This document shows positions 11,991-63,711 of a DNA stretch of 64,000 nucleotides, piece after piece. The DNA lies in contig JALQPE010002459.1 in the NCBI GenBank assembly GCA_030407315.1, forward strand, positions 18,147 to 82,146, read 5' to 3'. Position 1 is the stretch's first letter. The number at the start of each line of letters is the position of its first letter. The notes under the pieces are model-generated. The model searched no databases. It was not told the DNA's origin and saw only the letters and a list, made by a program, of their open reading frames with translations. Source of the stretch: Asparagopsis taxiformis (lineage: Eukaryota > Rhodophyta > Florideophyceae > Bonnemaisoniales > Bonnemaisoniaceae). The position numbers and the translations under genes were made by a program.

Positions 11991-12119
11991 ATGGACAGCA
12001 CGTTTCCCGCAACCGGTGCCGATTTTCAAGCGATTTCCTCCGCATCATTCATGGACGCTTTTATGGACTTTCGCAGATCCAAGGACAAGAACACTTCTAA
12101 TGCCACACAAGCCGCATAG
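11991..12119 (+). CDS. Micro-protein with conserved NTSNATQAA C-terminus, copy 1 (42 residues)
   Basis: A 42-residue frame beginning MDSTFPATGA and ending DFRRSKDKNTSNATQAA, then TAG. The last 17 residues match copies at 20778-20915 and 48843-48968 almost exactly and the other four copies closely. The codons differ between copies mostly at third positions, which argues for selection on the protein. There is no signal peptide or membrane segment. NTS and NAT are N-glycosylation-type triplets, meaningful only if the protein is secreted. An in-frame ATG at 11892 would give 75 residues; the shorter start is preferred because copy lengths agree (41-50). Function unknown. Confidence 0.5.
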   Translation: MDSTFPATGADFQAISSASFMDAFMDFRRSKDKNTSNATQAA

Positions 12120-14838
12120 CTTCCCGCATACCTCATGTGCAAGACTTTTAACTCTTGGGTTTTCGCCCGCCACTAATTTGCAAAGCACAACTGTTAACAG
12201 ACTAACTAGACATTAAAGTAACTGCACAGTATACTTTTCTGGGCACAGAAGAGGTACGAAACGTTTGGCATCTTGGTAATAAACGCGTTCTTTCCGCTAA
12301 GGGTTACTCCCTTGGCGTTCAAAACTACTGCTCCCAAGTAGTGCAAATGAACAAGTCAATGCGGATGGTTTGATTATCAAAGCAACAAGAGGTAGATATA
12401 GTTGCAATGGTTGTCAATTTGAAAGCCACCCTGAAAATCATTTCAAACACAAAGTACAAATGAAGCAGCGCAATGACACAATATTCTCCAATAGAACGCG
12501 AATAACATAGAAGGGTGAAGTGGCAGTGTGTGATGGCAGTTTAATTGCCCGATTTAGAAGCATAGTTGTCGCTTGACGAACACCACAAGTCAGGAATTAC
12601 AAGAGCGGCAGCATTGCTGTTCTGCATGGAAAGAATGAACGACGAGGAATGGTGCTTTTCAAACTTGTCAAGCAGCTGTAAATCGCGGAGGCATGACTGT
12701 TATGCACAAAATCTGCCAACTTGCTCGCTATCTCTCCAATCGGACATGGACGGAACGCTATGCTCGTTCCGGTAGGCGTGTTAAATTTGCATGTCTGCGC
12801 ATTGCATAGCTGGACGCTGGTAGCTCGGCGTGTTTTCCCCTTACGAAATGGATACGAGCACACCGGTGAGGACCTTGATAGTACACATCGCAACTCGGTG
12901 TGTATCTCGATATGGCGAAGATTTGGTGGTGCCTGACTACTGCTGGGGAAGGCAGTTTTGTCGATATAATCTGGCATGATGAAAAATATTTTTCAAAACT
13001 TCAAATATTTTGGAATATTCCGATAAATCAACAATTTCGAGAAAACTTTGATCCGCGCGACTCCTGCCAGCAATGTTTTAGACAGTACGACGTGGACCAA
13101 TCGGACGCGCCGAATGGAGTAGGAAAAAATGGACTGAATTCAGATTGATAAGTCGTTCGAAAACTTGCAACGACTTGACGTCGATGGTCGGCACGACGAT
13201 AGACACCTCCGCACACCCATACCTTGTTGTGCAATTCGCTCTCATTGTCGCAACGATGTGAAGTGGCCTCTCCTATTTGCACCACATCACGATATCTCTA
13301 AATCTATCTGACAATTCTTCTCCGTGACACTATACCCGCATGCGCTACGTTATGTCATCTCCATGCACGCGCGCATGGCTGGTTTTGTATTCGCGGTGCT
13401 TCTTGTCGGGTTGCCATCGGTTTTTAGTGAGCCACATCCCAGCTTGATGGCGCTTGTCCTGTCGGCTAGACGGTGCCTGCTATTCCCGCGCCCAGTATGG
13501 AGAAATCCCCTTTGGTGTGGAAACACGAGACGCCAAGATTTTCCGTTAATTTAAAAATATTTTGCGCGTACTCGCAACTGGCGAGCTCTGGGACACGACT
13601 GGGAGCATACCTCTCGAGCGATGCACGTTCCTCACTCGTCTCTGCTCTCCAAGAAACAGCTCGGCGAATTACAATCATGATGAGTATTGTCTGTGCTACA
13701 TCTCTTTCCACGCATTGGTTCATATGCGGTGGCTTGCCGCCGGGTTGCCCCAAAAATTGAGCCCAATTCACACCTTTCATACTTGGGACAAACTGCATCA
13801 TTCGATACTGCTTTGTTTGAACGTGTCGTTCACCGTAAATGCCCACTCACACTCCATGCCAACTCAGCATTCAAAGCCTCGTGTTGGACTGCTAGCCAGT
13901 ATCTCACCATGCTGTTCCCGTGCTTCATCGTCACACTTGTTCCCAGCCAGAATAGTTCACGCTCACCAGATCGTTCTGCTCTGTTGGTTTTATATACAAC
14001 GATGAACGACGTTCCAGTGATGATGGGCGCAAAGAAAGGGGCTCATGTCCAACAAAACATTCTCTCTTCATACACAAGTATTCATCGGTGTATCGTTCAT
14101 ATAGATGGTATCACGTTGTAGTTGTACTGGAATCTTTCTCAACGTGGCATTGAACAGCTAAGCACAAATCCGTCTGGTCCAGTGCTCATTCATCTGAGAT
14201 TCTGGCAATTGAACTTGTTGGATATTCGAGTTGATTCCACCGTTCTCCAGAAATAGTCTTCTCCTATCAATCCATTCCTTTCGGAGTCTGTTGTCGATGG
14301 ATGTTTATGAGAGAGAAATCATCTATTCATTGATGGAGATGGTAATGCAGGCTCACCCTCAGCCAGTTGCTCATCACATCTACTTTTCTATATTCAATCT
14401 TCTGCACACCTCAAAGAGCAACCATCTAATCTCGAAAACAAACAGGAAATGAACTCGCTCTAGACACATTTGTATGGTGGAAAGTTAATGTGCGAGCGAC
14501 CAAATTACAATGCCCCACACTGGTAGCACTGTCCCAGCAAACCGTATCCACTATCACATTTCTAAAACCTACCAAATGCTATTGTATGCCATTTCATGAA
14601 GTGCGAGCTTCCTAACTTTCCCAATTGACCATTAGAGGTGGGTGTTCCGATAGCATTGTAACCATCCAGAATCTATTCGAGCCGGTGAGTAAGCAGATAC
14701 CCTAAAAATAAAGTCTCGTAGCAAAAGTCTGAGAACGGGTCAATGATTAATTTTGGAAGGACCATGCCATGTTCAATTCTTTATTTTGGATTAGCTCAAC
14801 TGTTAGCTGTTATTAGATGGAACAAGTGTCATGAGTTA
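12120..14838. other. No clear gene; possible signal-peptide remnant at 13378-13554
   Basis: At 13378 a 58-codon plus-strand frame begins MAGFVFAVLLVGLPSVFS, a strong secretion signal, but it ends at 13554 without a recognisable mature domain. A different frame at 13562-14005 contains YCLCYISF, vaguely like the secreted family core. This may be a broken family member or chance. Confidence 0.25.
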
Positions 14839-14843
14839 GGTAT
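14839..14843 (+). repeat. Target-site duplication GGTAT, left copy
   Basis: Matches 20717-20721. Confidence 0.9.
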
Positions 14844-15466
14844 TGTGCAATAGCTGATCGATCTAGATGTATTGCATGCGCAATAGCTGGTCGATCCAGA
14901 TGTGCTGCAATCTGGATATTGGCTTACTGCTATCCAGACGAACAGATTGATGCAGCAGCAGCAAGTGATGGAGGCCAATGATTGGCCGAGCACATACAGT
15001 GGAAATAGAGCCATCACAGCGAAAGTGTATCGAATGATCGATATATGCTATTATATAGCAGCACTGCATTACGTAAGACTGTATTATTAATTATGATACA
15101 GAGGCATCCTCATTGGATGAAGACATGGATCTTCAGCTTGAGGATAGAGCAAAGTGATGTATTCCATGATGGAAGCATCACAGCTACAGGTTCACTCTGA
15201 TAGAGAGCTTCCACTAGTACGATGACTAGGTTAGGGTTAGAGTGGAACCTGTTGTTTGTTGGCACTTTAGAAGTACCTGCAGCGTGCGGCATCTGCCTAT
15301 AAATAGTGCGACAAGATGTCGTGCAAGGGGAGGAGAGGGCAAGCAAGAAGCAACGAGCAAACCCAAGCATCTCCAGAAACCCGGCCTTTGTGGCTTCCTG
15401 TTATCGCCTCTAGTATTTCTCTCTATTCCTTGGGTGTCCATGTCGACAAAGCCATTTTATTCCACA
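14844..15466 (+). repeat. Copia-1 5' LTR
   Basis: Begins TGTGCAATAGCTGATCGATC and ends TTATTCCACA. The first 65 bp are two diverged copies of a 33-bp unit (GCAATAGCTG[AG]TCGATC...). TATAAATA at 15298-15305 is the likely promoter. A short GGTTAGGGTTAG lies at about 15229-15240. Confidence 0.95.
15298..15305 (+). promoter_or_regulatory. TATA box in Copia-1 LTR
   Basis: TATAAATA; a start near 15328 would define the U3/R border. The same box is at 20548-20555 in the 3' LTR. Confidence 0.6.
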
Positions 15467-15479
15467 GTTATGGGCCCAG
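15467..15479 (+). promoter_or_regulatory. Copia-1 primer-binding site matching the initiator tRNA-Met anticodon arm
   Basis: GTTATGGGCCCAG immediately follows the 5' LTR. It is the exact complement of CUGGGCCCAUAAC in the anticodon arm of eukaryotic initiator tRNA-Met. Drosophila copia is known to prime from a cleaved half of this tRNA at the same site, so half-tRNA priming is inferred here. Confidence 0.85.
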
Positions 15480-15599
15480 GAGGCATGGCCCCGAAGAAAG
15501 CGCTTGAGGAAATGAACGCAAAGCCCATCACTACAGGATCCACCCCCGCTTCGTCCCGGTCAAGATCGCCAGAAATGGCGAAGAGATGTCAACTCTTGG

Positions 15600-16703
15600 A
15601 TGGCCTATATCACCAGGCGAGCATCTGTTGGTGAGAAAAAGTCACTTGCAACCCAGGCAACGCTGTGTTACGAGCTGTACAATGCCTTGGACGCAAGTTA
15701 TCAGAGTGTAATCGATCATGCTAAAATCAACAAGTCAATTTCATTTGATGTTGAGCCGCACCAACAGGAAGAAGCAGTGCTGAAGATTGTATCGCTAATT
15801 GGCGCTGATACATCACTGGAAATTATCGATCGAGCCCTGAATGCTTACAAGAATGTATATATGTGTATAAGATCCAACTCAGAACAGCCTTCCGAATTTG
15901 CAACTCGTTTTCGGGGGCTTGTTTCACAGTATATGTCACTTATTGGTATCAGTGTCACTGAGACAGAGTCACAGCTCATGGCAATGATAATGTTGCAGAA
16001 TTCTCGTCTGCCACATGACACTCAAAACGCAGTGAAGTTATTACTTGTCACTCAAGTGCAGCAGAAAAGAGCTTCAAAGATAACTAAGGCAGTGAAGCTA
16101 TCTGTGCATGATACAGAGAATCTCAAGAATTACGTACGAGACGCAAGTGACATATACGGCAAAGCAGACAGCATAGAAGTTCCAGGCAATAATGGACAGA
16201 GTGAACAACGTAGGACGTTGTCTGAAGCAGATCTGTCTAGATTAATTGACATTGCGACAAACATGACGCATTTGTTGCAATGTGTCACTCGTGAAGGGGA
16301 CTCTGGCCATGATATATACGTTGATGATGTATTTAACGCACTGCAGTCCTTGGATTCCGATCCATCGCATCAAAAACATCACAACAGCACTTCGAAGAGG
16401 CCCAGTGGAGATGATTTTCATGCCGCCGTTCAAAAGGCGACAATGATGGCTATTCAAAATCAAAGAGAATCCTCTATTGGAGCACTAACTATGCAACCGC
16501 GACGTCAGTCGACAAAACTGACAGAAAGAAAGATGAACAGTCGATGTCATCGCTGTAAGCGTAAAGGACATTGGAAGGGAGACGCAGAATGCCCCATGAC
16601 AAAGCGTCGTAAAATAAGCAGTGTCTCTCCTAAAGACGGAGAGGCTGGTGAGGCCATTGAAAAGCCTGCGGAAAATGAAGACAGACTACATTTTCAGAAG
16701 TAG
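15600..16703 (+). CDS. gag: Copia-1 Gag (capsid/nucleocapsid polyprotein)
   Basis: This 367-residue frame encodes the RNA-packaging protein. Residues about 20-180 are helical capsid-like sequence. A zinc knuckle lies at 316-331 (C-x2-C-x4-H-x6-C, two residues longer than the usual last gap), followed by a basic KRRK. The frame is open only from 15516, and the ATG at 15600 is probably internal. A better start, ATG at 15485 (MAPKKALEEMNAKPITT), sits in another frame that stops at 15634, so a one-base change between 15520 and 15600 has probably split the N-terminus. The stop TAG at 16701-16703 is buried in a perfect hairpin. Confidence 0.85.
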   Translation: MAYITRRASVGEKKSLATQATLCYELYNALDASYQSVIDHAKINKSISFDVEPHQQEEAVLKIVSLIGADTSLEIIDRALNAYKNVYMCIRSNSEQPSEFATRFRGLVSQYMSLIGISVTETESQLMAMIMLQNSRLPHDTQNAVKLLLVTQVQQKRASKITKAVKLSVHDTENLKNYVRDASDIYGKADSIEVPGNNGQSEQRRTLSEADLSRLIDIATNMTHLLQCVTREGDSGHDIYVDDVFNALQSLDSDPSHQKHHNSTSKRPSGDDFHAAVQKATMMAIQNQRESSIGALTMQPRRQSTKLTERKMNSRCHRCKRKGHWKGDAECPMTKRRKISSVSPKDGEAGEAIEKPAENEDRLHFQK

Positions 16704-19700
16704 GGTCAGATGAGCTCCGATCTGACCCTAACCCACTGTTAGACAGCGGAGCACCGCACAGCATCGGTGGCACAGAAAGTGCTGCAGCACTTTGCAATGC
16801 TATTGGAATTCGGTTGATATTTAAACCTCCTAAAGAGCAATTCATGCATGGTTGGGGGCCGAATATGCTCGATGCAAAACCAGTATATTGTTTATGGAGT
16901 CTGCCTGTCAGAGACATAGGCGGCATTACAGGGTACCTGCATTTCCACTTAGTTGCCGGTACCGAGCCGTTGTTGATCGGGGATGATGTGCTGAAATGTT
17001 CGATGACTGATAACATGTCTGATCGTCTGCATTTATTCCAACCAGATGGCACGCGTCTGACCTACCATACATACTGCAGCCAGGGTGGGAATCGCCGACG
17101 CCTGTCAGTTGTACCGCCACCACAGGATTTTGAGCTTGAGTTGTCATCTGACATGCGTTCTTACATGTCTAGCCATATCAGATATCTCAATAAGCATGGT
17201 CCGATGAAGTTTGCACAGCGGTTACACAACTACTCACATGCGACAAGTGATGACATGAAGCGAATATGCAAGATGGCAAATATATTAGACAGACGTTTAC
17301 AGAAATGCATTGACAATGTGCACTCCGCATGTCATGTATGTTGCCGTACCGGCCGACCGAAAACGTCAAGAAAGGTGTCATTGAGTCATATAGCCTCGAC
17401 GTTTAACCAATCAGTGCAGGTCGATTTCTTTTTCCCAACGATTCGTGGTATACGTCGTACGTTGCTGCACATGCGCGATCGCGGTACAGGATACTCCGAG
17501 ATGGAGGCTTTACCGTCACGGGATCTCGATGACGCTGCAGTATCACTTGATTACACCTGGCTATCCCGTCATGGTGCACCTGGCACCATTAGCGGTGATC
17601 AAGAGTTCAACAAAGGGCCGTTCAAACGCCTTCTAAAGGCTCATGACATATTATTTGAAGCGCGCCCCGCCCGTAGACACAACAAGGTTGGCTCTGTTGA
17701 AAGAAAAAACGCTGTGCTACGTGTCATACTAGATCGTATTGCGCAAGACTGTGACGAACTCACAGTGTCATCTGTGATTGCCAGAGCGAGCTTTCTAAGC
17801 AATTTGTTCAGTGGTTCCAAGCTGGCCAGCTCATTTGAACAAGCAAGAGGATATACTCCTGGAATTTGTGGCTTGCGTGGTGCGTTGGTGTCACCTGAAT
17901 TAATACGCGCTCACGAGGAGAGAGTCGCACAACGTGCACTACACCGTCTACTGTCGTCAAAATCACCCAAAGTCCTGTCACCCCATATATTACCGAAGGG
18001 TACAAAGATATACGCGCTCCTGCAGAAAGGTGACTGGGAACCTCTGACAGTTTTTGAAGCACAGCCACATATTGTGCTAGCCCGACGTAATGACCGTGGA
18101 CCAAACATAGCCGTTGCGTATGAGGACGTTCGCATCGCACCATCACAGGATATAAACAAGTCATTGGTGCATATTGACGTCACGAACACGGACAGATCGG
18201 AGGATGAGGGGGGTGAGATGGACTCCGTTGCAAGCTTCGACAAGTCAAATGCATTGTCTGCAGATCATCCTACTCCTGTCCAGAAAAATATACCTTCCAT
18301 GCTTACACATCGTCGAAGTATAGGCGATGCATCGCGAGATGTCGGTCAATACATCGCCACAACCCCTCCTCATCCGGGCACGCTTCTGGAGACCAATGAG
18401 CAACAAGTTCTTGAAAAGATCAAATCTGTCATTGGCAATGCACAAGTTACTGTCAGCAAACTCAGCTTTGCACCTGAGTGGGCAGTACAGAATGCTTTTA
18501 ATGCAGAGCTGGAAAACTGGAAGGGAGTCTATAGTGAAATGCCTGAGTCTGAAGTGGCATTGAATGCCAACGTCATCAGATCACACACGGTGTACAAGAT
18601 TAAGTCTGATGAGCAAGCAAAACTGAAGCTAAAGGCGCGTATTGTTGCGCATGGAAATGAGGACAAGGACCGTGATGCAGTCCGAAAAGACTCTGCCGCT
18701 GCGCAGTTTGTTATAATTAGGCTGCTGCTTTCCACAGCCGCACTGCGAGGCTTCCGGCTAGGAAAAATTGACGTCAAGAAAGCTTACTTACAAAGTGGTC
18801 CTATTAAGCGCGAGATATACGTCAGGCCGCCTCGAGAATGGAATTCCGCGTCGGATGCATACCCAAAAAGGGGTATATTATGGAAGCTTCTGAAGCTTCC
18901 ATACGGAATTGTAGAGGCTGGCCGCCAGTGGCAACTGGTGGCAGAATCATGGCTACTTGAGCAGATGATGTTTGAAAGAGTCCCTGGCCTGTCACAGATA
19001 TTTACTAAGCGTGACAAGAACGGCCATATTACAGTCATGCTGACTAAAGTCATTGATGACTTCCTAGTAGCTGGCAGTGTGTCAGACATCTCAAGTTTCG
19101 TCCAGAGTGCAAAGCAACAGTTCGAGATTGGTTGCGTTGTCATCGATGACAACATCAAGTATAATGGCACAGAAATCGAGCAAGCATCTACCGGTAGCAT
19201 TAAGCTATCTATGCATGAGTACTGTGGCCGCATTACACCAATCCCGCTTACCCCATCCAGAAGGAAAAACCGCAATTCCCCCGCCACGCCTGAAGAGCAC
19301 ACACAGTACCTACGTCTTGCAGGATTGCTCAATTTTTTGGGCAAAGGTGCGCTTCCATGTGCGTCATTTGTAACAAGTCATATGTTACAGAAGTCAGGAA
19401 GACTGAACGTGGCTGCCATAGTCGAAGCAAATTCGATGCAAAAGGAGATCTCCAAGCTGTCACCCGTCATCTCATTTGTCGCCCCAGCGTCCAATGACAA
19501 AGTGCACCCATTCCTTTGTTCCTTCTCTGATGCATCTTTTAATATCTCCTCAAAGCAATCATATGGTCAGACTGGTATTTTCTGTGGTCTTGCCATCCCG
19601 CAACGAAATAGTGTTTTACTGCATCCTATTGAATGGTCGTCATCAAAGCAACACAGAGTTACATACTCATCTTTTGGCGCTGAAATAATTGCTTGCGCAG

Positions 19701-20050
19701 CAGCTGATGACCGTGCCTACTACCTACGACAAGGTGTTCGCGCTTTGCTGGATGACAGTTCGATCAAGTCACACATTAACATTGACTCTCGTGGTTTATT
19801 CGACACATTGACAACATTGCATGACGGTCGCGACTATCGTTTACGACAAACGGTGCAGAGAATAAGAGACAGCTTCGATGGTAATGACATTGATGTACTG
19901 CGATGGATCCGAGGATCTGACAATGGCGCTGATGCCTTGACCAAAAGAAACATTGTTTTATACCGCTTACTCAACGACATATGTGTTGATGGCACGTTGC
20001 ATATAGCTCTCGACCAGGGATACGAACTGGACAGTCATGAATGGAAGTAG
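16679..20050 (+). CDS. pol: Copia-1 Pol (protease, integrase, reverse transcriptase, RNase H)
   Basis: This frame is -1 to gag, open from 16679, with no ATG near its beginning, so it is expected as a Gag-Pol fusion. A retropepsin active site LLDSGAPHSIGG is encoded at 16736-16771. Counting from the Leu codon at 16814: integrase HHCC zinc site H138, H142, C173, C176; integrase triad D204, D262, E296 (GSVERKNAVLR); RT with D653 (KIDVKKAYLQS) and the active-site pair D748-D749 (VIDDFL, in place of the usual YVDD); RNase H D906, E957, D991, D1040. The frame has no internal stop and looks functional. Confidence 0.93.
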   Translation, partial: RQTTFSEVGSDELRSDPNPLLDSGAPHSIGGTESAAALCNAIGIRLIFKPPKEQFMHGWGPNMLDAKPVYCLWSLPVRDIGGITGYLHFHLVAGTEPLLIGDDVLKCSMTDNMSDRLHLFQPDGTRLTYHTYCSQGGNRRRLSVVPPPQDFELELSSDMRSYMSSHIRYLNKHGPMKFAQRLHNYSHATSDDMKRICKMANILDRRLQKCIDNVHSACHVCCRTGRPKTSRKVSLSHIASTFNQSVQVDFFFPTIRGIRRTLLHMRDRGTGYSEMEALPSRDLDDAAVSLDYTWLSRHGAPGTISGDQEFNKGPFKRLLKAHDILFEARPARRHNKVGSVERKNAVLRVILDRIAQDCDELTVSSVIARASFLSNLFSGSKLASSFEQARGYTPGICGLRGALVSPELIRAHEERVAQRALHRLLSSKSPKVLSPHILPKGTKIYALLQKGDWEPLTVFEAQPHIVLARRNDRGPNIAVAYEDVRIAPSQDINKSLVHIDVTNTDRSEDEGGEMDSVASFDKSNALSADHPTPVQKNIPSMLTHRRSIGDASRDVGQYIATTPPHPGTLLETNEQQVLEKIKSVIGNAQVTVSKLSFAPEWAVQNAFNAELENWKGVYSEMPESEVALNANVIRSHTVYKIKSDEQAKLKLKARIVAHGNEDKDRDAVRKDSAAAQFVIIRLLLSTAALRGFRLGKIDVKKAYLQSGPIKREIYVRPPREWNSASDAYPKRGILWKLLKLPYGIVEAGRQWQLVAESWLLEQMMFERVPGLSQIFTKRDKNGHITVMLTKVIDDFLVAGSVSDISSFVQSAKQQFEIGCVVIDDNIKYNGTEIEQASTGSIKLSMHEYCGRITPIPLTPSRRKNRNSPATPEEHTQYLRLAGLLNFLGKGALPCASFVTSHMLQKSGRLNVAAIVEANSMQKEISKLSPVISFVAPASNDKVHPFLCSFSDASFNISSKQSYGQTGIFCGLAIPQRNSVLLHPIEWSSSKQHRVTYSSFGAEIIACAAADDRAYYLRQGVRALLDDSSIKSHINIDSRGLFDTLTTLHDGRDYRLRQTVQRIRDSFDGNDIDVLRWIRGSDNGADALTKRNIVLYRLLNDICVDGTLHIALDQGYELDSHEWK
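16701..16730 (+). promoter_or_regulatory. Hairpin over the Copia-1 gag stop codon; candidate -1 frameshift stimulator
   Basis: TAGGGTCAGAT (16701-16711), an 8-base loop, then ATCTGACCCTA (16720-16730): an 11-bp perfect stem that includes the gag stop. A TTTT run (16691-16694) lies 6 bases before the stem, and the pol frame is -1 relative to gag and open only from 16679. The layout fits programmed -1 shifting, although the slip site is not a standard X-XXY-YYZ heptamer. Confidence 0.55.
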
Positions 20051-20081
20051 CCAGTTGGCATTCAAATTGTATTGTTCATGC

Positions 20082-20093
20082 CAATGGGGGGTG
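20082..20093 (+). promoter_or_regulatory. Copia-1 polypurine tract
   Basis: AATGGGGGGTG directly precedes the 3' LTR and would prime plus-strand synthesis. Confidence 0.75.
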
Positions 20094-20716
20094 TGTGCAA
20101 TAGCTGATCGATCTAGATGTATTGCATGCGCAATAGCTGGTCGATCCAGATGTGCTGCAATCTGGATATTGGCTTACTGCTATCCAGACGAACAGATTGA
20201 TGCAGCAGCAGCAAGTGATGGAGGCCAATGATTGGCCGAGCACATACAGTGGAAATAGAGCCATCACAGCGAAAGTGTATCGAATGATCGATATATGCTA
20301 TTATATAGCAGCACTGCATTACGTAAGACTGTATTATTAATTATGATACAGAGGCATCCTCATTGGATGAAGACATGGATCTTCAGCTTGAGGATAGAGC
20401 AAAGTGATGTATTCCATGATGGAAGCATCACAGCTACAGGTTCACTCTGATAGAGAGCTTCCACTAGTACGATGACTAGGTTAGGGTTAGAGTGGAACCT
20501 GTTGTTTGTTGGCACTTTAGAAGTACCTGCAGCGTGCGGCATCTGCCTATAAATAGTGCGACAAGATGTCGTGCAAGGGGAGGAGAGGGCAAGCAAGAAG
20601 CAACGAGCAAACCCAAGCATCTCCAGAAACCCGGCCTTTGTGGCTTCCTGTTATCGCCTCTAGTATTTCTCTCTATTCCTTGGGTGTCCATGTCGACAAA
20701 GCCATTTTATTCCACA
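20094..20716 (+). repeat. Copia-1 3' LTR
   Basis: Same 623 bp as the 5' LTR, offset by 5250; no difference was seen where I compared the two. Confidence 0.95.
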
Positions 20717-20721
20717 GGTAT
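20717..20721 (+). repeat. Target-site duplication GGTAT, right copy
   Basis: Matches 14839-14843. Confidence 0.9.
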
Positions 20722-20777: not shown

Positions 20778-20915
20778 TTATGCAGCTTGGGTCGCATTAG
20801 ATGTATTCTTGTCCTTCGATCTGCGGAAGTTGACAGAAACGTCTGAGAATTGATGGGAAGAAACTGCTCTGCAGTCCAAAAAAGGGGAAGAAAGTTCGTT
20901 GTTGAAGGAGACCAT
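20778..20915 (-). CDS. Micro-protein with conserved NTSNATQAA C-terminus, copy 2 (45 residues)
   Basis: Minus-strand frame MVSFNNELSSPFLDC... ending NFRRSKDKNTSNATQAA, then TAA. It shares PFL and an S-x-x-F-x-D-x-x-V-[DN]-F block with copy 7 (63577-63711), upstream of the tail. TATATAAG lies on the minus strand at 21061-21068, about 150 bp upstream of the ATG. Copia-1 sits just downstream of the stop, leaving the gene intact. Function unknown. Confidence 0.5.
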   Translation of the reverse strand: MVSFNNELSSPFLDCRAVSSHQFSDVSVNFRRSKDKNTSNATQAA

Positions 20916-29443: not shown

Positions 29444-29483
29444 CTCAGAGGTTTTTCTTTTTCACAGTAGAGGCATAAATTTG

Positions 29484-34177: not shown

Positions 34178-34234
34178 ATTTTCGGGTTATATCTATCCAA
34201 GACTTGTTGCAGCTGCTTCCGGGACAGTTATAAC

Positions 34235-50348: not shown

Positions 50349-50492
50349 ATGCCGCCTGTCAAGAACAAAGGTTCAGGAGACAAACGTCCCGGGCCGTCAA
50401 AGCCTGTTATTGTGTGGAAATTGAAAGTCAAACCCATGGATTTCAGTAGAGGTCCGAACAAGAGCACCTCTGATGCCACTCCGGCTGTATAA
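50349..50492 (+). CDS. Micro-protein with diverged C-terminus, copy 6 (47 residues)
   Basis: Begins MPPVKNKGSGDKRPGPSKPV and ends MDFSRGPNKSTSDATPAV, then TAA. The tail keeps DF, N/K, TS-D-AT-x-A at the same distance from the stop. The N-terminal half is basic and Pro-rich, unlike the other copies. TATAGC lies about 85 bp upstream, a weak promoter candidate. This is the most distant copy. Confidence 0.35.
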   Translation: MPPVKNKGSGDKRPGPSKPVIVWKLKVKPMDFSRGPNKSTSDATPAV

Positions 50493-51951: not shown

Positions 51952-51964
51952 CAAAGGAGAGAAG
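51952..51964 (+). other. Polypurine-tract copy outside the Gypsy-2A 5' LTR
   Basis: CAAAGGAGAGAAG, identical to the 13 bases preceding the 3' LTR (57157-57169). The bases before it are not element-like. Confidence 0.7.
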
Positions 51965-52301
51965 TGGTGCACGCACGCGAAGACAGTACGTATCACCGTC
52001 TGCAATATATTGTGCACTTTCCCCGGCTACCATTATTACTGATTAATAGTGGTACGCACTGATTACAGTACAGAAGTGAACGTTCCGGGAGTCTTGTGAT
52101 TGAATCACTGCGATATCGATACATCGAACCTTTAGAGAGAAAGGATGAGCGGCATCGTCACTAGTGGAATTTCTACTGATGTGGTACAAGAATCCGGATT
52201 AGAAAGGAGGTCATGATGTACATATAATCCGACTGGCAGGGGAAATAAACAAAAGGAGCCAGCACACTAGCGGCAGTTTACTATTGCCCTACTGTTAGCC
52301 A
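51965..52301 (+). repeat. Gypsy-2A 5' LTR
   Basis: Followed directly by AAGTGATCACTT (52302-52313), a perfect 12-bp palindrome at the primer-site position. ATATAATC near the end of the LTR is a promoter candidate. Confidence 0.93.
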
Positions 52302-52313
52302 AAGTGATCACTT
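52302..52313 (+). promoter_or_regulatory. Palindromic putative primer-binding site
   Basis: AAGTGATCACTT. Gypsy-1 has GTGATCACTT at the same position. It does not begin TGG as sites for tRNA 3' ends do. Confidence 0.45.
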
Positions 52314-52372
52314 AGCTTCTGAGCAATCATCGTGAGGCCTATCTGAGCTTCATCTCTCTTAAGCTCTCTAGT

Positions 52373-55300: not shown

Positions 55301-57148
55301 TGGTCGACTGCAGAAAAGGAGGCTTTCGCAATAATCGAGTCGGTATTGCGCCTGGACTACCTCCTTCTTCGCCCGGAAGGATTTTTCCTGTTTACCGACC
55401 ATAAGAACTTGGTATTCATATTTGATCCCTTATCTTCACGCCAGTCGATGGGTAAGCACACTACAAGCAAGATTTCGAGATGGGCTATGAGGCTTTCAGC
55501 ATTCCGTTACACCATAATCCATATTCCCGGGCCCGAAAACTGTTGGGCGGACTTGATGTCCCGCTGGGGAGCCCCCACAGTGGTACAAAATCACGGTGCA
55601 TCAGTCCGTGCTAAACTATCGGCACTTTTCGTTGCTCCAGTGGCACCCGACTTGGATTCAGATTTCAAGTGGCCTTCGTCAGTCGATATCATAACGGCAC
55701 AGAAGGCAGCCTCTGGAAATGAAGAGGGACTCCCACCAAAGAGGAAAAAGAAGGGAATGGCAGTCACCAAGTCAGGATCAATCTGGATTCCTTCCCATGC
55801 TGTGGAACTTCAACTACGCATATGCATTATAGGACATTGCGGAAGAAGTGGACACCGTGGAGCAGATACTACACTCAAAACAATTTCCGAGATGTTTTAT
55901 TGGAAAAATATGGATTCCGACATTCAGTCGTTCTGTAGGTCTTGTCTACACTGCCTGGCGACTACTGGAGGCCACAGGATTCCAAGACCGCTATCACATG
56001 CTCTGCATTCTGATAAACCCAATGAAGTGTTGCACTTTGATTACCTTTTCATGGGACAAAGTTTCATTGGTCACCAGTACGTGCTCATCTTAAAAGATGA
56101 CGCGTCTTCATTCGTATGGCTTGAGCCAACAGCAGTGGCAGATGCCGCAACAGCGGTAGAAGTACTTTGTCGATGGTTCGCATCCTTTGGCGTATCCTAT
56201 ACTTGGGTGAGCGATCAAGGCAGTCATTTCTGCAATACAATTATGCGTCAACTTAATAGAGAGTTGCATACGCGACACCACTTCACGACAGCATATTGTC
56301 CACAGTCCAATGGAACAGTGGAAAGCATGTGTAAGGAGGTTCTTCGAGCTGCAAGAGCTCTGCTTTCGGAATTTCGTATGGATACCAAGGATTGGCCCAA
56401 ATTAATTCGTCTGATTCAGACAATACTGAATCACTCTAAGCGCCCCTCTCTGGGTAATATCGCTCCAATCACGGCTTTCACTGGACAACCCGCAGACAGC
56501 CCACTTCTTTCTATCGTTCCACCTTCAGTTCCAGAACCTCGCTCTTTATCATTCATACAGGCGCAAAAGATTGCTGGTATCAAATCGTTGCTCCAAGCAT
56601 CTGATGATTTACACAAAGAAGTCTCTTTCCGTCGAACAAAGAAAAGACAACAATCTATCGCAGCTCACAACGCTAGAACAAATGTGAGCGAGATTAATTT
56701 CACAGTTGGTGACTATGTACTAGTCGCGCAGAGGCTTAAAAATAATGGCAACAAGCTTAGGATCAAATGGCGTGGGCCTCAACGTATCACAAGAGCCGAT
56801 TCTGACGTTGTTTATGAGGTGGAAGATCTCCTTTCAGGACTTTTAACTTTGGTTCATGCTAATCGGTTGAAGTTTTATGCTGATTCCAGTCTCAATGTGA
56901 CCGAGACACTATTGGACACTGTTGCAAATAATAATCCACATTATAACAAGGCGGAGCAGTTGCTCGACCTGCGCTATAACAATGAGCTGGCCAGGTATGA
57001 GGTACAAGTGAAATGGGAAGGGTTTGATCATGAGGATCCCACATGGGAGCCAATGGAAAACTTACGAGAAGACATTCCCAAAATGCTTGAAAGCTTCATG
57101 TCCTCGCATCATGATGTTGAGATGGTACAGCAAGCACTCGCATTGTGA
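52373..57148 (+). CDS. gag-pol: Gypsy-2A Gag-Pol polyprotein with chromodomain
   Basis: 1591 codons in one frame. Gag with zinc knuckle C275-x4-C280-x3-H284-x4-C289. Protease-like site G-D354-Y-G-S-D, with Tyr where Ser or Thr is expected. RT D707 (FATLDLCQGYWQL) and W-L-D770-D771. RNase H D933, E983, D1009, D1060. Basic KRKKK at about 1123. Integrase H1155, H1161, C1191, C1194 and triad D1223, D1281, E1317 with exactly 35 residues between the last two. GDYVLVA and KWRGPQRI near 1446-1471. Chromodomain about 1525-1575 (KWEGFDHEDPTWEP). No break seen; probably able to transpose. Confidence 0.95.
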   Translation: MDDQGTSSSTGQPVFMPIAHPELKKLGRKAIHTFLRNRENYLLRIQDANSSGSNMKPVSIISSVDRDLLLSLIAFETFPGVSEFKELTDDILEEFLKSKEEIKLESISLEDLESAIKTSVKINVNEPDPELRIQALFTDYQTLLRNKKWERLIEDKPALSIRHICEMLKPNVLKTRIQQDLELGIHDLEDNWMKFYKQVMKRAVACEEYVPIKSTPPHQHEKSKPQRRDNVTVRSSMNSPCVPPNSSTHKNKDTSEKASHVSSVSCSPSKALPDCLNPSCSGKHYIRSCPNTSQEEKDRYLKLYRDKKTKSGRLSMLNESITSSSRLNDSTREIPAGRFKALLADKVLVTVNGDYGSDHASLSGRHLEELYQAGVFINVLPLAEPISMGLALNERDEVGKEKLYTAKRKARISTTIHLLTGPLRLRNVEYLVFDEDMDEVLLSRPLLQSIGFDLENHLSTVRHLYHDADFSHIGFNGIEDSFHGQETGAEKGKLAELLLTPTDQSSDTLPIDECPEYSVDKVVVSKIHKSSDYAKSMDDGSEHSLPVGVDNDKESADGISLMLEDCIKEGLPEEYHNDMSALVREYSDIFRTKLGADPPARLPPMKVLLKEDAKPVRVRVRRYSEQQTEFLRRKVDELLQLGLIFPNNSSQWACAPLVVPKTGPEGFRFTVDLRPVNSQTIPFVWPMPDLESCTAKLTNDTCFATLDLCQGYWQLPLDPSSQECQSFITADGVFTPTRVMHGQTNAVSYLQSNVQILCRDIRDSLLQWLDDILIHCRTVVQLLTILRTFFGICREHNLKLHAKKCRLYLETVRWCGRSISKDGIRMDPNRLNGLLNMSHPITGADLQQFLCAATWMKHSIPSFTTVVASLHATLEDVYKMAGKRTRHAVAKIKLDSLWGDDQRKAFQNVKDSLLHSTTLAHPDSCKLLCLYTDASEFHWSGVLTQIPAVDIDADFVDQRHQPLAFLSGSFTGSRSRWSTAEKEAFAIIESVLRLDYLLLRPEGFFLFTDHKNLVFIFDPLSSRQSMGKHTTSKISRWAMRLSAFRYTIIHIPGPENCWADLMSRWGAPTVVQNHGASVRAKLSALFVAPVAPDLDSDFKWPSSVDIITAQKAASGNEEGLPPKRKKKGMAVTKSGSIWIPSHAVELQLRICIIGHCGRSGHRGADTTLKTISEMFYWKNMDSDIQSFCRSCLHCLATTGGHRIPRPLSHALHSDKPNEVLHFDYLFMGQSFIGHQYVLILKDDASSFVWLEPTAVADAATAVEVLCRWFASFGVSYTWVSDQGSHFCNTIMRQLNRELHTRHHFTTAYCPQSNGTVESMCKEVLRAARALLSEFRMDTKDWPKLIRLIQTILNHSKRPSLGNIAPITAFTGQPADSPLLSIVPPSVPEPRSLSFIQAQKIAGIKSLLQASDDLHKEVSFRRTKKRQQSIAAHNARTNVSEINFTVGDYVLVAQRLKNNGNKLRIKWRGPQRITRADSDVVYEVEDLLSGLLTLVHANRLKFYADSSLNVTETLLDTVANNNPHYNKAEQLLDLRYNNELARYEVQVKWEGFDHEDPTWEPMENLREDIPKMLESFMSSHHDVEMVQQALAL

Positions 57149-57169
57149 CCTCTCTTCAAAGGAGAGAAG

Positions 57170-57506
57170 TGGTGCACGCACGCGAAGACAGTACGTATCA
57201 CCGTCTGCAATATATTGTGCACTTTCCCCGGCTACCATTATTACTGATTAATAGTGGTACGCACTGATTACAGTACAGAAGTGAACGTTCCGGGAGTCTT
57301 GTGATTGAATCACTGCGATATCGATACATCGAACCTTTAGAGAGAAAGGATGAGCGGCATCGTCACTAGTGGAATTTCTACTGATGTGGTACAAGAATCC
57401 GGATTAGAAAGGAGGTCATGATGTACATATAACCCGACTGGCAGGGGAAATAAACAAAAGGAGCCAGCACACTAGCGGCAGTTTACTATTGCCCTACTGT
57501 TAGCCA
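57170..57506 (+). repeat. Gypsy-2A 3' LTR
   Basis: Preceded by the polypurine tract CAAAGGAGAGAAG (57157-57169). Confidence 0.93.
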
Positions 57507-57513
57507 ATGTTTT
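57507..57513. other. 7-bp junction between the two inverted Gypsy elements
   Basis: ATGTTTT separates LTR ends ...GTTAGCCA and TGGCTAAC..., forming the centre of an 11-kb palindrome. Confidence 0.9.
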
Positions 57514-57850
57514 TGGCTAACAGTAGGGCAATAGTAAACTGCCGCTAGTGTGCTGGCTCCTTTTGTTTATTTCCCCTGCCAGTCGGATTATATGTACATC
57601 ATGACCTCCTTTCTAATCCGGATTCTTGTACCACATCAGTAGAAATTCCACTAGTGACGATGCCGCTCATCCTTTCTCTCTAAAGGTTCGATGTATCGAT
57701 ATCGCAGTGATTCAATCACAAGACTCCCGGAACGTTCACTTCTGTACTGTAATCAGTGCGTACCACTATTAATCAGTAATAATGGTAGCCGGGGAAAGTG
57801 CACAATATATTGCAGACGGTGATACGTACTGTCTTCGCGTGCGTGCACCA
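57514..57850 (-). repeat. Gypsy-2B 3' LTR
   Basis: Inverted copy of the Gypsy-2A LTR; the polypurine tract is at 57851-57863 on the minus strand. Confidence 0.93.
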
Positions 57851-57871
57851 CTTCTCTCCTTTGAAGAGAGG

Positions 57872-60800
57872 TCACAATGCGAGTGCTTGCTGTACCATCT
57901 CAACATCATGATGCGAGGACATGAAGCTTTCAAGCATTTTGGGAATGTCTTCTCGTAAGTTTTCCATTGGCTCCCATGTGGGATCCTCATGATCAAACCC
58001 TTCCCATTTCACTTGTACCTCATACCTGGCCAGCTCATTGTTATAGCGCAGGTCGAGCAACTGCTCCGCCTTGTTATAATGTGGATTATTATTTGCAACA
58101 GTGTCCAATAGTGTCTCGGTCACATTGAGACTGGAATCAGCATAAAACTTCAACCGATTAGCATGAACCAAAGTTAAAAGTCCTGAAAGGAGATCTTCCA
58201 CCTCATAAACAACGTCAGAATCGGCTCTTGTGATACGTTGAGGCCCACGCCATTTGATCCTAAGCTTGTTGCCATTATTTTTAAGCCTCTGCGCGACTAG
58301 TACATAGTCACCAACTGTGAAATTAATCTCGCTCACATTTGTTCTAGCGTTGTGAGCTGCGATAGATTGTTGTCTTTTCTTTGTTCGACGGAAAGAGACT
58401 TCTTTGTGTAAATCATCAGATGCTTGGAGCAACGATTTGATACCAGCAATCTTTTGCGCCTGTATGAATGATAAAGAGCGAGGTTCTGGAACTGAAGGTG
58501 GAACGATAGAAAGAAGTGGGCTGTCTGCGGGTTGTCCAGTGAAAGCCGTGATTGGAGCGATATTACCCAGAGAGGGGCGCTTAGAGTGATTCAGTATTGT
58601 CTGAATCAGACGAATTAATTTGGGCCAATCCTTGGTATCCATACGAAATTCCGAAAGCAGAGCTCTTGCAGCTCGAAGAACCTCCTTACACATGCTTTCC
58701 ACTGTTCCATTGGACTGTGGACAATATGCTGTCGTGAAGTGGTGTCGCGTATGCAACTCTCTATTAAGTTGACGCATAATTGTATTGCAGAAATGACTGC
58801 CTTGATCGCTCACCCAAGTATAGGATACGCCAAAGGATGCGAACCATCGACAAAGTACTTCTACCGCTGTTGCGGCATCTGCCACTGCTGTTGGCTCAAG
58901 CCATACGAATGAAGACGCGTCATCTTTTAAGATGAGCACGTACTGGTGACCAATGAAACTTTGTCCCATGAAAAGGTAATCAAAGTGCAACACTTCATTG
59001 GGTTTATCAGAATGCAGAGCATGTGATAGCGGTCTTGGAATCCTGTGGCCTCCAGTAGTCGCCAGGCAGTGTAGACAAGACCTACAGAACGACTGAATGT
59101 CGGAATCCATATTTTTCCAATAAAACATCTCGGAAATTGTTTTGAGTGTAGTATCTGCTCCACGGTGTCCACTTCTTCCGCAATGTCCTATAATGCATAT
59201 GCGTAGTTGAAGTTCCACAGCATGGGAAGGAATCCAGATTGATCCTGACTTGGTGACTGCCATTCCCTTCTTTTTCCTCTTTGGTGGGAGTCCCTCTTCA
59301 TTTCCAGAGGCTGCCTTCTGTGCCGTTATGATATCGACTGACGAAGGCCACTTGAAATCTGAATCCAAGTCGGGTGCCACTGGAGCAACGAAAAGTGCCG
59401 ATAGTTTAGCACGGACTGATGCACCGTGATTTTGTACCACTGTGGGGGCTCCCCAGCGGGACATCAAGTCCGCCCAACAGTTTTCGGGCCCGGGAATATG
59501 GATTATGGTGTAACGGAATGCTGAAAGCCTCATAGCCCATCTCGAAATCTTGCTTGTAGTGTGCTTACCCATCGACTGGCGTGAAGATAAGGGATCAAAT
59601 ATGAATACCAAGTTCTTATGGTCGGTAAACAGCAAAAATCCTTCCGGGCGAAGAAGGAGGTAATCCAGGCGCAATACCGACTCGATTATTGCGAAAGCCT
59701 CCTTTTCTGCAGTCGACCAACGAGAGCGCGATCCAGTGAAAGAGCCTGATAAAAAGGCCAACGGCTGATGTCTCTGGTCGACAAAGTCAGCATCAATATC
59801 AACCGCAGGAATTTGAGTGAGCACACCCGACCAATGGAACTCTGAAGCGTCTGTATAAAGGCATAGAAGCTTACAGGAGTCAGGGTGAGCGAGCGTAGTG
59901 GAATGTAATAGAGAATCCTTGACATTCTGAAATGCCTTCCGCTGTTCATCACCCCACAAGCTATCAAGCTTAATTTTGGCAACCGCGTGCCTCGTGCGCT
60001 TGCCCGCCATCTTGTACACATCCTCAAGAGTCGCATGAAGTGATGCTACAACTGTAGTGAATGATGGAATCGAATGTTTCATCCATGTTGCTGCACACAG
60101 GAACTGTTGCAGATCTGCACCAGTGATGGGGTGAGACATATTCAGAAGGCCGTTTAGACGGTTTGGGTCCATTCGAATTCCATCCTTGCTTATTGAGCGG
60201 CCACACCAACGCACTGTCTCCAGATAAAGTCTACACTTTTTCGCATGCAGTTTCAAATTGTACTCTCTGCAGATACCAAAAAAAGTGCGAAGAATAGTGA
60301 GTAGTTGAACTACTGTTCTACAGTGAATCAGTATGTCATCTAGCCATTGTAGCAGAGAGTCGCGAATATCTCGGCAAAGAATCTGTACATTGCTTTGCAG
60401 GTATGACACTGCATTTGTTTGCCCATGCATTACTCGTGTAGGTGTGAATACTCCATCGGCTGTAATGAAACTTTGGCATTCTTGTGAACTAGGGTCCAGT
60501 GGTAATTGCCAATACCCTTGACACAAGTCTAAAGTGGCAAAACAGGTGTCATTGGTTAGTTTCGCAGTGCAAGATTCCAGGTCTGGCATTGGCCAGACGA
60601 ACGGAATTGTCTGTGAATTGACCGGTCTGAGATCAACCGTGAAGCGGAAGCCCTCTGGTCCTGTCTTGGGAACAACCAATGGTGCGCAAGCCCATTGACT
60701 GCTATTGTTAGGGAATATTAGTCCCAATTGTAACAGTTCATCCACCTTCCGTCTTAAAAATTCAGTTTGTTGTTCTGAATAGCGTCGGACTCGAACCCTT

Positions 60801-62647
60801 ACTGGTTTTGCGTCTTCCTTTAGGAGAACCTTCATAGGAGGAAGACGTGCCGGTGGATCTGCACCAAGCTTGGTTCGAAAAATATCTGAGTATTCTCGAA
60901 CAAGAGCAGACATATCATTATGATACTCTTCTGGTAAGCCCTCTTTTATGCAGTCTTCCAGCATCAAAGAAATTCCATCTGCCGATTCCTTGTCATTATC
61001 TACACCCACAGGTAGGCTGTGCTCCGAACCATCGTCCATTGACTTTGCATATTCTGAACTCTTGTGGATTTTAGATACTACCACCTTGTCAACAGAATAT
61101 TCAGGGCATTCATCAATTGGTAGTGTATCACTACTCTGATCCGTCGGTGTAAGAAGCAATTCAGCCAATTTTCCCTTCTCTGCCCCCGTTTCTTGGCCAT
61201 GAAAACTGTCTTCTATCCCATTGAAACCTATGTGTGAGAAGTCCGCATCATGATAGAGGTGCCTTACTGTAGAAAGGTGATTCTCCAAATCGAATCCTAT
61301 GGATTGGAGCAAGGGGCGCGAAAGTAAAACCTCATCCATATCTTCATCAAACACGAGATACTCAACATTCCGTAGCCGTAAAGGTCCTGTAAGCAAATGG
61401 ATTGTAGTAGATATACGTGCCTTACGTTTCGCAGTATACAACTTCTCTTTCCCCACCTCGTCACGTTCGTTCAGAGCAAGGCCCATAGAAATTGGTTCTG
61501 CGAGCGGTAAAACATTGATAAACACACCAGCTTGATATAACTCTTCCAAATGTCTCCCAGAGAGCGAGGCATGATCTGATCCATAGTCGCCATTGACAGT
61601 AACCAGTACCTTGTCTGCCAGTAAGGCCTTGAACCGCCCTGCCGGGATTTCTCGAGTAGAATCATTCAATCGACTAGAGCTAGTGATGGATTCGTTTAAC
61701 ATACTAAGCCGTCCGCTCTTGGTCTTTTTGTCTCGGTATAGCTTCAAATACCTATCCTTTTCCTCCTGGGAAGTGTTTGGACATGATCTTATATAATGTT
61801 TGCCGCTACAGGACGGATTGAGACAGTCTGGCAGTGCTTTGGATGGCGAGCAAGAGACTGAAGATACATGAGAAGCCTTCTCAGAAGTATCCTTATTCTT
61901 GTGCGTGCTGGAGTTCGGAGGTACGCAAGGAGAATTCATAGAACTCCTTACAGTGACATTATCGCGTCTTTGTGGTTTGCTTTTTTCATGCTGATGAGGT
62001 GGCGTGGACTTTATCGGGACGTACTCTTCACAAGCTACAGCACGTTTCATAACCTGCTTGTAAAACTTCATCCAATTATCTTCCAGATCGTGTATTCCTA
62101 GTTCAAGATCTTGCTGTATCCTGGTCTTCAGGACATTGGGCTTCAGCATTTCGCATATATGTCGAATAGAGAGAGCTGGTTTGTCTTCAATCAGCCTTTC
62201 CCATTTCTTGTTCCTCAGCAAAGTTTGATAGTCGGTAAACAGAGCTTGAATTCGAAGTTCTGGATCTGGTTCATTTACATTGATCTTGACTGACGTCTTT
62301 ATCGCTGACTCGAGGTCCTCTAGCGATATGGACTCCAGCTTTATTTCTTCTTTGCTCTTTAGAAATTCTTCCAGTATATCATCTGTCAATTCCTTGAACT
62401 CGGATACACCTGGAAATGTCTCAAATGCAATTAAGGATAGCAGAAGATCACGATCGACAGATGAGATTATCGATACCGGCTTCATATTGCTCCCTGAAGA
62501 ATTTGCATCTTGTATACGCAGTAGATAGTTTTCACGGTTCCGGAGGAAGGTGTGGATGGCTTTGCGTCCAAGTTTCTTCAGCTCCGGGTGTGCAATTGGC
62601 ATGAAAACTGGTTGCCCAGTAGATGACGATGTACCTTGATCGTCCAT
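57872..62647 (-). CDS. gag-pol: Gypsy-2B Gag-Pol polyprotein with chromodomain
   Basis: 1591 codons, same domains as 52373-57148. Differences found: D532 to E, H796 to Y, D901 to E and F1005 to L. None touches a catalytic residue. The few differences mean both copies descend from a very recent common source. Confidence 0.95.
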   Translation of the reverse strand: MDDQGTSSSTGQPVFMPIAHPELKKLGRKAIHTFLRNRENYLLRIQDANSSGSNMKPVSIISSVDRDLLLSLIAFETFPGVSEFKELTDDILEEFLKSKEEIKLESISLEDLESAIKTSVKINVNEPDPELRIQALFTDYQTLLRNKKWERLIEDKPALSIRHICEMLKPNVLKTRIQQDLELGIHDLEDNWMKFYKQVMKRAVACEEYVPIKSTPPHQHEKSKPQRRDNVTVRSSMNSPCVPPNSSTHKNKDTSEKASHVSSVSCSPSKALPDCLNPSCSGKHYIRSCPNTSQEEKDRYLKLYRDKKTKSGRLSMLNESITSSSRLNDSTREIPAGRFKALLADKVLVTVNGDYGSDHASLSGRHLEELYQAGVFINVLPLAEPISMGLALNERDEVGKEKLYTAKRKARISTTIHLLTGPLRLRNVEYLVFDEDMDEVLLSRPLLQSIGFDLENHLSTVRHLYHDADFSHIGFNGIEDSFHGQETGAEKGKLAELLLTPTDQSSDTLPIDECPEYSVDKVVVSKIHKSSEYAKSMDDGSEHSLPVGVDNDKESADGISLMLEDCIKEGLPEEYHNDMSALVREYSDIFRTKLGADPPARLPPMKVLLKEDAKPVRVRVRRYSEQQTEFLRRKVDELLQLGLIFPNNSSQWACAPLVVPKTGPEGFRFTVDLRPVNSQTIPFVWPMPDLESCTAKLTNDTCFATLDLCQGYWQLPLDPSSQECQSFITADGVFTPTRVMHGQTNAVSYLQSNVQILCRDIRDSLLQWLDDILIHCRTVVQLLTILRTFFGICREYNLKLHAKKCRLYLETVRWCGRSISKDGIRMDPNRLNGLLNMSHPITGADLQQFLCAATWMKHSIPSFTTVVASLHATLEDVYKMAGKRTRHAVAKIKLDSLWGDEQRKAFQNVKDSLLHSTTLAHPDSCKLLCLYTDASEFHWSGVLTQIPAVDIDADFVDQRHQPLAFLSGSFTGSRSRWSTAEKEAFAIIESVLRLDYLLLRPEGFLLFTDHKNLVFIFDPLSSRQSMGKHTTSKISRWAMRLSAFRYTIIHIPGPENCWADLMSRWGAPTVVQNHGASVRAKLSALFVAPVAPDLDSDFKWPSSVDIITAQKAASGNEEGLPPKRKKKGMAVTKSGSIWIPSHAVELQLRICIIGHCGRSGHRGADTTLKTISEMFYWKNMDSDIQSFCRSCLHCLATTGGHRIPRPLSHALHSDKPNEVLHFDYLFMGQSFIGHQYVLILKDDASSFVWLEPTAVADAATAVEVLCRWFASFGVSYTWVSDQGSHFCNTIMRQLNRELHTRHHFTTAYCPQSNGTVESMCKEVLRAARALLSEFRMDTKDWPKLIRLIQTILNHSKRPSLGNIAPITAFTGQPADSPLLSIVPPSVPEPRSLSFIQAQKIAGIKSLLQASDDLHKEVSFRRTKKRQQSIAAHNARTNVSEINFTVGDYVLVAQRLKNNGNKLRIKWRGPQRITRADSDVVYEVEDLLSGLLTLVHANRLKFYADSSLNVTETLLDTVANNNPHYNKAEQLLDLRYNNELARYEVQVKWEGFDHEDPTWEPMENLREDIPKMLESFMSSHHDVEMVQQALAL

Positions 62648-62718
62648 ACTAGAGAGCTTAAGAGAGATGAAGCTCAGATAGGCCTCACGATGATTGCTCA
62701 GAAGCTAAGTGATCACTT

Positions 62719-63055
62719 TGGCTAACAGTAGGGCAATAGTAAACTGCCGCTAGTGTGCTGGCTCCTTTTGTTTATTTCCCCTGCCAGTCGGATTATATGT
62801 ACATCATGACCTCCTTTCTAATCCAGATTCTTGTACCACATCAGTAGAAATTACACTAGTGACGATGCCGCTCATCCTTTCTCTCTAAAGGTTCGATGTA
62901 TCGATATCGCAGTGATTCAATCACAAGACTCCCGGAACGTTCACTTCTGTACTGTAATCAGTGCGTACCACTATTAATCAGTAATAATGGTAGCCGGGGA
63001 AAGTGCACAATATATTGCAGACGGTGATACGTACTGTCTTCGCGTGCGTGCACCA
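62719..63055 (-). repeat. Gypsy-2B 5' LTR
   Basis: The coding strand reads into the same palindromic AAGTGATCACTT (62707-62718) as in Gypsy-2A. Confidence 0.93.
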
Positions 63056-63479
63056 CCTGTTCACATCCTTCACTCCATCAGCTGATCATCTTCCGCACCA
63101 CACGTCCATATTCTTTCTCGCAGATTTCTGTTTTCCAACCCTATCCATAGTAAACTCTGCATTGACATCTTATCGACCATTCTCCCTGCAAAGTGCTCCA
63201 TAGCTCAATTCTTCTCACAGTTCTCCGAATGTAACGTCTGCGTTCCCCTTCAACTCGCCGCTATCTTTATTTGCATCTGCTGTCATCAGAAAAGCTCATC
63301 TCACTGGCTGCGAGGACATGCTTTCTGCTCATCCAGCCAACTGTTTCAACAATGCGTCCTCTCCAGGAGTAGGCTCCAACCCGATGTCGCTTCTATCACT
63401 CTGGCTGGAGAAATGGTCTCTTCTATTCACAGTCCTCTCTAGACGTGATCTTTGCTTTTGACATTTGTCAGTCGTTCTC
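63056..63479. other. No gene; right flank of the Gypsy pair
   Basis: Pyrimidine-rich unique sequence leading to the promoter of micro-protein copy 7. Confidence 0.4.
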
Positions 63480-63486
63480 TATAAAA
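63480..63486 (+). promoter_or_regulatory. TATA box of micro-protein copy 7
   Basis: TATAAAA, 91-97 bp upstream of the ATG at 63577. Confidence 0.55.
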
Positions 63487-63576
63487 CCCCGTCGCATACT
63501 TGCAGGTTTAGCATCATCCGACATTCAGACAACCCAAATTTCAATCCATCACTCAAAAAAGCTAGCGCTCTTCGAC

Positions 63577-63711
63577 ATGAACTGTTTTGTGACGTTTGCC
63601 CGACCCTTTCTTTCGCGTTCTTCATCCGAATTTATCGACTCGATTGTCGATTTTGCCGACAACAAGGAAAAGAAGGACAAGAATACTTCCAATGCAACGC
63701 AGGCTGCCTAG
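63577..63711 (+). CDS. Micro-protein with conserved NTSNATQAA C-terminus, copy 7 (44 residues)
   Basis: Begins MNCFVTFARPFLSRSSSEFI and ends KKDKNTSNATQAA, then TAG. It has the clearest promoter of the set. PFL, S-x-x-F-x-D and V-D-F align with copy 2, showing that similarity extends beyond the tail. A longer in-frame start at 63445 lies upstream of the TATA box and is therefore unlikely. Function unknown. Confidence 0.5.
   Translation: MNCFVTFARPFLSRSSSEFIDSIVDFADNKEKKDKNTSNATQAA

Follow-up and report, generated by a model that had tools for sequence, protein, structure and literature searches.

Several described systems encode short products that join a conserved segment to a variable one. 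The CLE-, IDA- and PIP-type hormone precursors of plants come from short genes with a variable body, a conserved C-terminal motif and several paralogues, and the CaaX pheromone precursors of fungi are short, leaderless and clustered. Fungal MSDIN-type precursors of ribosomally synthesized and post-translationally modified peptides (RiPPs) are also leaderless and short, and each has one conserved segment while the rest varies. Arrest peptides are usually recognized by an N-terminus that varies and a C-terminus that is conserved as far as the stop codon, and the conserved peptides of upstream open reading frames (uORFs) have the same layout. We analyzed a 64,000-nucleotide stretch of the genome of the red alga Asparagopsis taxiformis (GenBank assembly GCA_030407315.1, contig JALQPE010002459.1, positions 18,147 to 82,146; C2333:18147-82146, hereafter the window), in which seven short genes, a to g, encode proteins with a common C-terminal block, or tail. 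These genes share the features listed above with each system and differ from every one of them. Unlike the plant precursors, their products have no signal-peptide-like hydrophobic core and no Pfam match, and the host is a red alga and not a land plant. Unlike the CaaX precursors, the proteins, again of a red algal host, end in AA or AV (all 11 genes found in the genome) and not in Cys-a-a-X. Unlike the uORFs, no common main open reading frame (ORF) was found downstream of the genes examined, and unlike the MSDIN type there is a single conserved segment, at the C-terminus, and no modifying-enzyme gene was recognized in the ORFs scanned. The genes form a real and apparently undescribed family. 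Those in the window are as follows.

Gene a, 11991..12119, plus strand: 42 residues, tail DFRRSKDKNTSNATQAA before the stop; TATAWA at -113 (11878)
Gene b, 20778..20915, minus strand: 45 residues, tail NFRRSKDKNTSNATQAA before the stop; convergent with a; TATAWA at -153 (21068)
Gene c, 42661..42813, minus strand: 50 residues, tail DCGKSKDEDTSDATQAA before the stop; TATAWA at -90 (42903)
Gene d, 44066..44206, minus strand: 46 residues, tail NKDKDKDKDTSNATSAA before the stop; in tandem with c; no TATAWA within 400 bp
Gene e, 48843..48968, plus strand: 41 residues, tail DFRRSKDRNTSNATQAA before the stop; TATAWA at -153 (48690)
Gene f, 50349..50492, plus strand: 47 residues, tail NKSTSDATPAV before the stop; no TATAWA within 400 bp
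Gene g, 63577..63711, plus strand: 44 residues, tail ADNKEKKDKNTSNATQAA before the stop; TATAWA at -97 (63480)

The original prediction, made from the window's letters alone, had proposed these seven frames, and its translations and coordinates were confirmed. Each frame begins with ATG, has no internal stop and carries the tail block directly against the stop codon. When all six frames of the window were scanned for [NDS][TK][ST][ND]AT, only genes a to g were returned. We then searched the assembly (141,494,207 bases in 3,156 contigs) with a degenerate DNA pattern for TS[ND]ATxA[AV]-stop, which gave 24 exact matches, compared to none for the reversed control; the seven frames are real and far above chance expectation. 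The matches were located on C2333 (7), C1028 (7), C2925 (2), C106 (3), C154 (3), C175 (1) and C2015 (1). In the stretches compared, C1028 and C2925 are haplotigs of C2333, and C154 and C175 are haplotigs of C106, so that 23 of the 24 matches fall in two loci and their haplotigs. The match on C2015 ends a 19-residue open stretch without Met and was counted as chance, not as a family member.

Counting one copy of each locus, the family has at least 11 genes, namely a to g and, at the second locus (C106), four genes outside the window, i, h1, h2 and j; distant copies may be missed by protein searches. With a looser pattern that did not require the stop there were 29 matches against 5 in the control; 23 of the 29 were family members and 6 were not (about the control rate). 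Protein searches of the assembly, for which a, c, f, i and j served as queries, revealed no additional locus. Neither these searches nor the stop-free pattern added a C-terminally extended member (the stricter pattern did require the stop), and in all 11 genes the tail directly precedes the stop. The tail of seven genes (a, b, c, e, h1, h2 and j) fits [DN][FC].[KR]SKD[KRE][ND]TS[ND]A[TA]QAA; in gene j, A replaces the second T of the block. Gene f is the most divergent member, and its copies on C2333 and C1028 differ by one R/G.

Across the last 12 codons of the 11 genes, mean pairwise identity was 0.82, 0.89 and 0.43 at codon positions 1, 2 and 3, respectively; in the 60 nucleotides past the stop it was 0.25, the chance level. 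When all 55 pairs, which are not independent, were pooled, the proportion of synonymous sites that differed (pS) was 0.82 and that of non-synonymous sites (pN) was 0.13. Five non-overlapping pairs, chosen by us and including 10 of the 11 genes (f omitted), gave a pS of 0.72 and a pN of 0.06, or 29.3 synonymous differences over 41 sites and 8.7 non-synonymous differences over 139 sites (binomial P = 4e-12). With the genes aligned at their stop codons, pN/pS was 0.07 in the last 11 codons and 0.09 in the four before them, compared to 0.53 in the preceding 12 and 0.65 in the 11 further upstream. This comparison by segment used genes a, b, e, h1 and j only, since h2 repeats h1 and genes c, d, f, g and i were harder to align upstream of the tail. 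Apart from h1 and h2, the DNA similarity between paralogues lies within the coding sequence and stops no more than 6 bases past the stop codon.

These data indicate that the tail is conserved as protein, not as DNA. The original prediction had described a conserved extreme C-terminus on a variable body, had attributed the third-position changes to purifying selection on protein, and had named a ratio near 1, or equal conservation at all codon positions and outside the frame, as outcomes that would count against it. These proposals held up: the ratio in the tail, determined as pN/pS among paralogues, is well below 1, the codon positions are unequal, and identity past the stop is at the chance level.

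The tandem pair h1 and h2 encodes an identical protein. Their match is 314 bp long, beginning at about -184 and extending 4 bases beyond the stop codon. Of its seven mismatches, two fall in the promoter region, four within the final eight codons and one beyond the stop. Up to +106 the coding sequences are the same, whereas the flanks bear no relation to each other. All four coding differences are synonymous, an outcome with a chance probability of about 0.006. We infer that gene conversion carried promoter and body from one older copy to another and that the converted tract stopped within the tail. The pair is a clean natural sign of selection acting on the tail as protein.

The expectation that no such family had been described was borne out within the searches made. 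None of the 10 distinct proteins matched Pfam-A at E up to 10, and no matching chain was found in the PDB. A search of 5.8 billion proteins with the seven window proteins yielded 384 candidates, none at E up to 10. The same set does contain a 97% relative of a neighbor gene on C106 (a haem peroxidase), but this negative is soft because proteins of 40 residues are often not called. No locus was confirmed in viral contigs (10 stretches) or prokaryote genomes (58 stretches) with the ten proteins as query. In the open-access literature the letters of the tail were not found, and topical searches returned nothing on such a family. Restriction of the family to Asparagopsis is likely, but it is unproven because this assembly was the only eukaryotic genome searched.

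No signal-peptide-like hydrophobic core was detected in the 10 distinct proteins by a simple hydropathy test (not SignalP); the highest mean hydropathy of any 10-residue segment in the first 31 residues was 0.37-1.68. An AlphaFold2 model contained one helix, at residues 16-33. In 9 of the 11 genes (h1 and h2 are not independent) a TATAWA box lies upstream of the ATG, at a distance of 90-153 bp, whereas the same rule was satisfied by 77 of 2,533 other ATGs in the window and by 2 of 135 other window ORFs of 41-50 residues. The original prediction had given most of the window genes an upstream TATA-like box; a strict TATAWA stands at -90 to -153 before a, b, c, e and g, and none precedes d and f. 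Besides the TATA box no shared promoter motif was found, as k-mers of 6-9 in the 400 bp upstream of 10 genes were no more shared than in shuffles.

The surroundings of the genes are rich in transposons, and one study puts repeats at about 71% of the A. taxiformis L6 genome (PMC12115072). The window contains the following elements, and the young ones have long terminal repeat (LTR) or arm identities of 99.7-99.8%.

14844..20721, no strand assigned: Copia-type LTR element between a and b; LTRs 99.8% identical, 6-bp target duplication, RVT_2; absent from C2925
22637-28379: Ty3-type copy, a young element
28894-34785: second Copia-type copy, a young element
51950..63056, no strand assigned: two inverted Ty3-type copies between f and g, with RVT_1, RNase H, integrase and chromo; absent from C1028

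The Copia-type element at 14844..20721 and the inverted Ty3-type pair are surroundings and stand outside the peptide family. The region 51950-63056 is an 11.1-kb near-perfect palindrome (99.7%) that arose in assembly or else through an unusual paired insertion. Another pair of inverted repeats, 34838-37300 and 38230-40693, each 2.46 kb long, 99.8% identical and separated by a spacer of 0.93 kb, resembles a DNA transposon of recent origin or a paired insertion. A Plavaka-type transposase crosses the left window edge (1-1161 and L056:8051-10000). Positions 1600-2820 consist of tandem repeats in which both strands carry open frames, and these frames match one another; 3519-5651 holds a 710-codon minus-strand frame with a GTG start and an alanine-rich repetitive end (G+C content 0.64 for 4001-6000).

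The elements bear on the spacing of the genes. Tandem neighbors (c-d, e-f, h1-h2 and h2-j) start 1.4-2.2 kb apart, and genes a and b are 2.8 kb apart on haplotigs C2925 and C1028. Genes f and g are still 17 kb apart on C1028 although the inverted Ty3-type pair is absent there, so other sequence, of which only part was seen, must separate them. The original prediction had called the family dispersed; it is instead confined to two loci, and young retrotransposons explain part, not all, of the spacing in the window.

A Pfam scan of 105 selected window ORFs (transposon regions omitted) found one Plavaka transposase and one marginal EGF match. The C106 stretches scanned contain an animal-type haem peroxidase, a chromate transporter, a Kelch protein, a GRDP-like protein and a GSDH-type exon. 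The peroxidase frame is 97% identical to an assembled protein, and its best named match is from Chondrus crispus (47%). A plastid rpoC2 gene of the assembly is 100% identical to a record without a species name and 98% identical to that of A. taxiformis, and among the best 120 matches listed the next named species stands at 69%. These two genes point to a red algal host and not to a fungus; a search for fungal STE3 pheromone receptors was empty, a negative without weight since no control gave a signal either. About 1 kb downstream of gene i, an NLR-like locus (L052:1701-6019, minus strand) has AAA_16, APAF1_C, WD40 and TIR matches in two overlapping frames, the TIR match being in the later one. 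Among the ORFs of the window and of the C106 stretches there was no partner gene common to both loci; matches between the two were the peptides and the shadow frames antisense to them, together with retroelements, tandem repeats and sequence of low complexity. Two ORFs of C106 are related to each other (L052:3-1100 and L055:7696-8205, 31%), and they have no match in the window.

Constraint limited to the last 15 residues and always ending at the stop is best fitted by recognition of the end, and we give an even chance to the following model. The microprotein family is restricted to its lineage, and its members, which diverge in the body, all dock through their free C-terminal tail to a single shared partner. 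The 11 genes would be free-standing and single-exon, each with its own promoter, and each would make a cytosolic protein of 41-50 residues. The hydrophilic, lysine-rich tail, with its free carboxyl end, would be read by the shared partner, for example a processing enzyme, an adaptor or a degradation receptor. A weak amphipathic helix may precede the tail, and the diverging N-terminal body would set the role of each member. The tail may thus be a tag for sorting, binding or processing, as the original prediction suggested. Several observations weigh against the docking tail. Selection was estimated from paralogues only, and with synonymous sites near saturation the ratios are approximate. By eye, genes d, f, g and i have little in common beyond the last 8-12 residues. 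The AlphaFold2 model is weak (mean predicted local distance difference test score 62.7, predicted TM-score 0.25). Gene b on C2925 (L041:8639-8776) has a shifted N-terminal frame; that contig shows 80 gap openings in 8.6 kb compared to the window, and because it has so many small gaps the shift is likely, though not proven, to be an assembly error.

Other explanations of a fixed end on a free body were considered. The proteins could be RiPP-like or hormone-like precursors, in which the tail is a recognition segment for a modifying protease or the released mature peptide, and the body is the core or a discarded pro-region. The conserved tail and variable body, the small clustered single-exon genes with TATA boxes and a layout like that of CLE-type peptides agree with this, but none of the 10 distinct proteins shows a hydrophobic signal-peptide core in the hydropathy test, RR precedes the tail only in a, b, e, h1 and h2, and the window and C106 stretches have no common non-transposon protein family besides the peptides, short low-complexity matches aside. 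No modifying enzyme was recognized in the ORFs scanned around the genes, which covered C106, C1028 and C2333 in part, among the families listed (25 of 43 in one scan); linkage is not required for such enzymes. We consider such precursors unlikely. A related version, in which leaderless precursors of 41-50 residues have a 15-residue tail read by one enzyme or receptor and promoter-plus-body cassettes are exchanged by gene conversion, as h1 and h2 suggest, seems rather unlikely. Import into an organelle would also account for the free N-terminus and fixed C-terminus, if the former were a cleaved plastid or mitochondrial presequence and the C-terminal 15-27 residues were the mature product. Red algal transit peptides follow a Phe rule, and Phe occurs at residues 2-8 in 6 of the 10 distinct proteins compared to 46 of 157 other window ORFs of 40-60 residues. 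However, this is a weak excess among six related proteins, several N-termini contain acidic residues, and a presequence would have about 15-20 residues, which is very short. We consider organelle proteins quite unlikely.

A role as immune or defense peptides, or as decoys acting with NLR-like receptors, is suggested by the position of gene i, about 1 kb upstream of the AAA_16/APAF1_C/WD40/TIR locus and on the same strand, and PMC12115072 includes WD40 proteins among 391 potential pathogen receptors of A. taxiformis. Only 1 of the 11 genes has such a neighbor in the scanned sequence and two loci cannot show association, and we regard this role as very unlikely. The genes could also be uORFs that regulate a main ORF by halting the ribosome at the stop codon through their conserved C-terminus; the arrest-peptide layout agrees, and 9 of 10 genes examined have a same-strand ATG ORF of at least 60 residues within 2.5 kb downstream. 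Those ORFs begin 51 to more than 1,100 bases past the stop and are mutually dissimilar unless two peptides share one stretch, and there is none in the 1.5 kb after h1 (gene g was not covered, as the contig ends). The uORF explanation was not favored and is highly improbable. A transposon-rich region could produce a DNA-level repeat, a transposon remnant or chance ORFs, but the skew among codon positions with third positions near saturation, the chance-level flanks, the pattern in h1 and h2 and the absence of reversed matches led us to reject a DNA-level repeat, and we give this group of explanations almost no weight.

To our knowledge, little is known about peptides of red algae, and very short genes such as these are often missed by gene finders. 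There is practical interest in the host, as bromoform from Asparagopsis lowers cattle methane according to PMC12115072. If the tail does dock to one shared partner, then a single pull-down with the tail as bait could reveal that partner, since the tail is nearly invariant while the bodies diverge.

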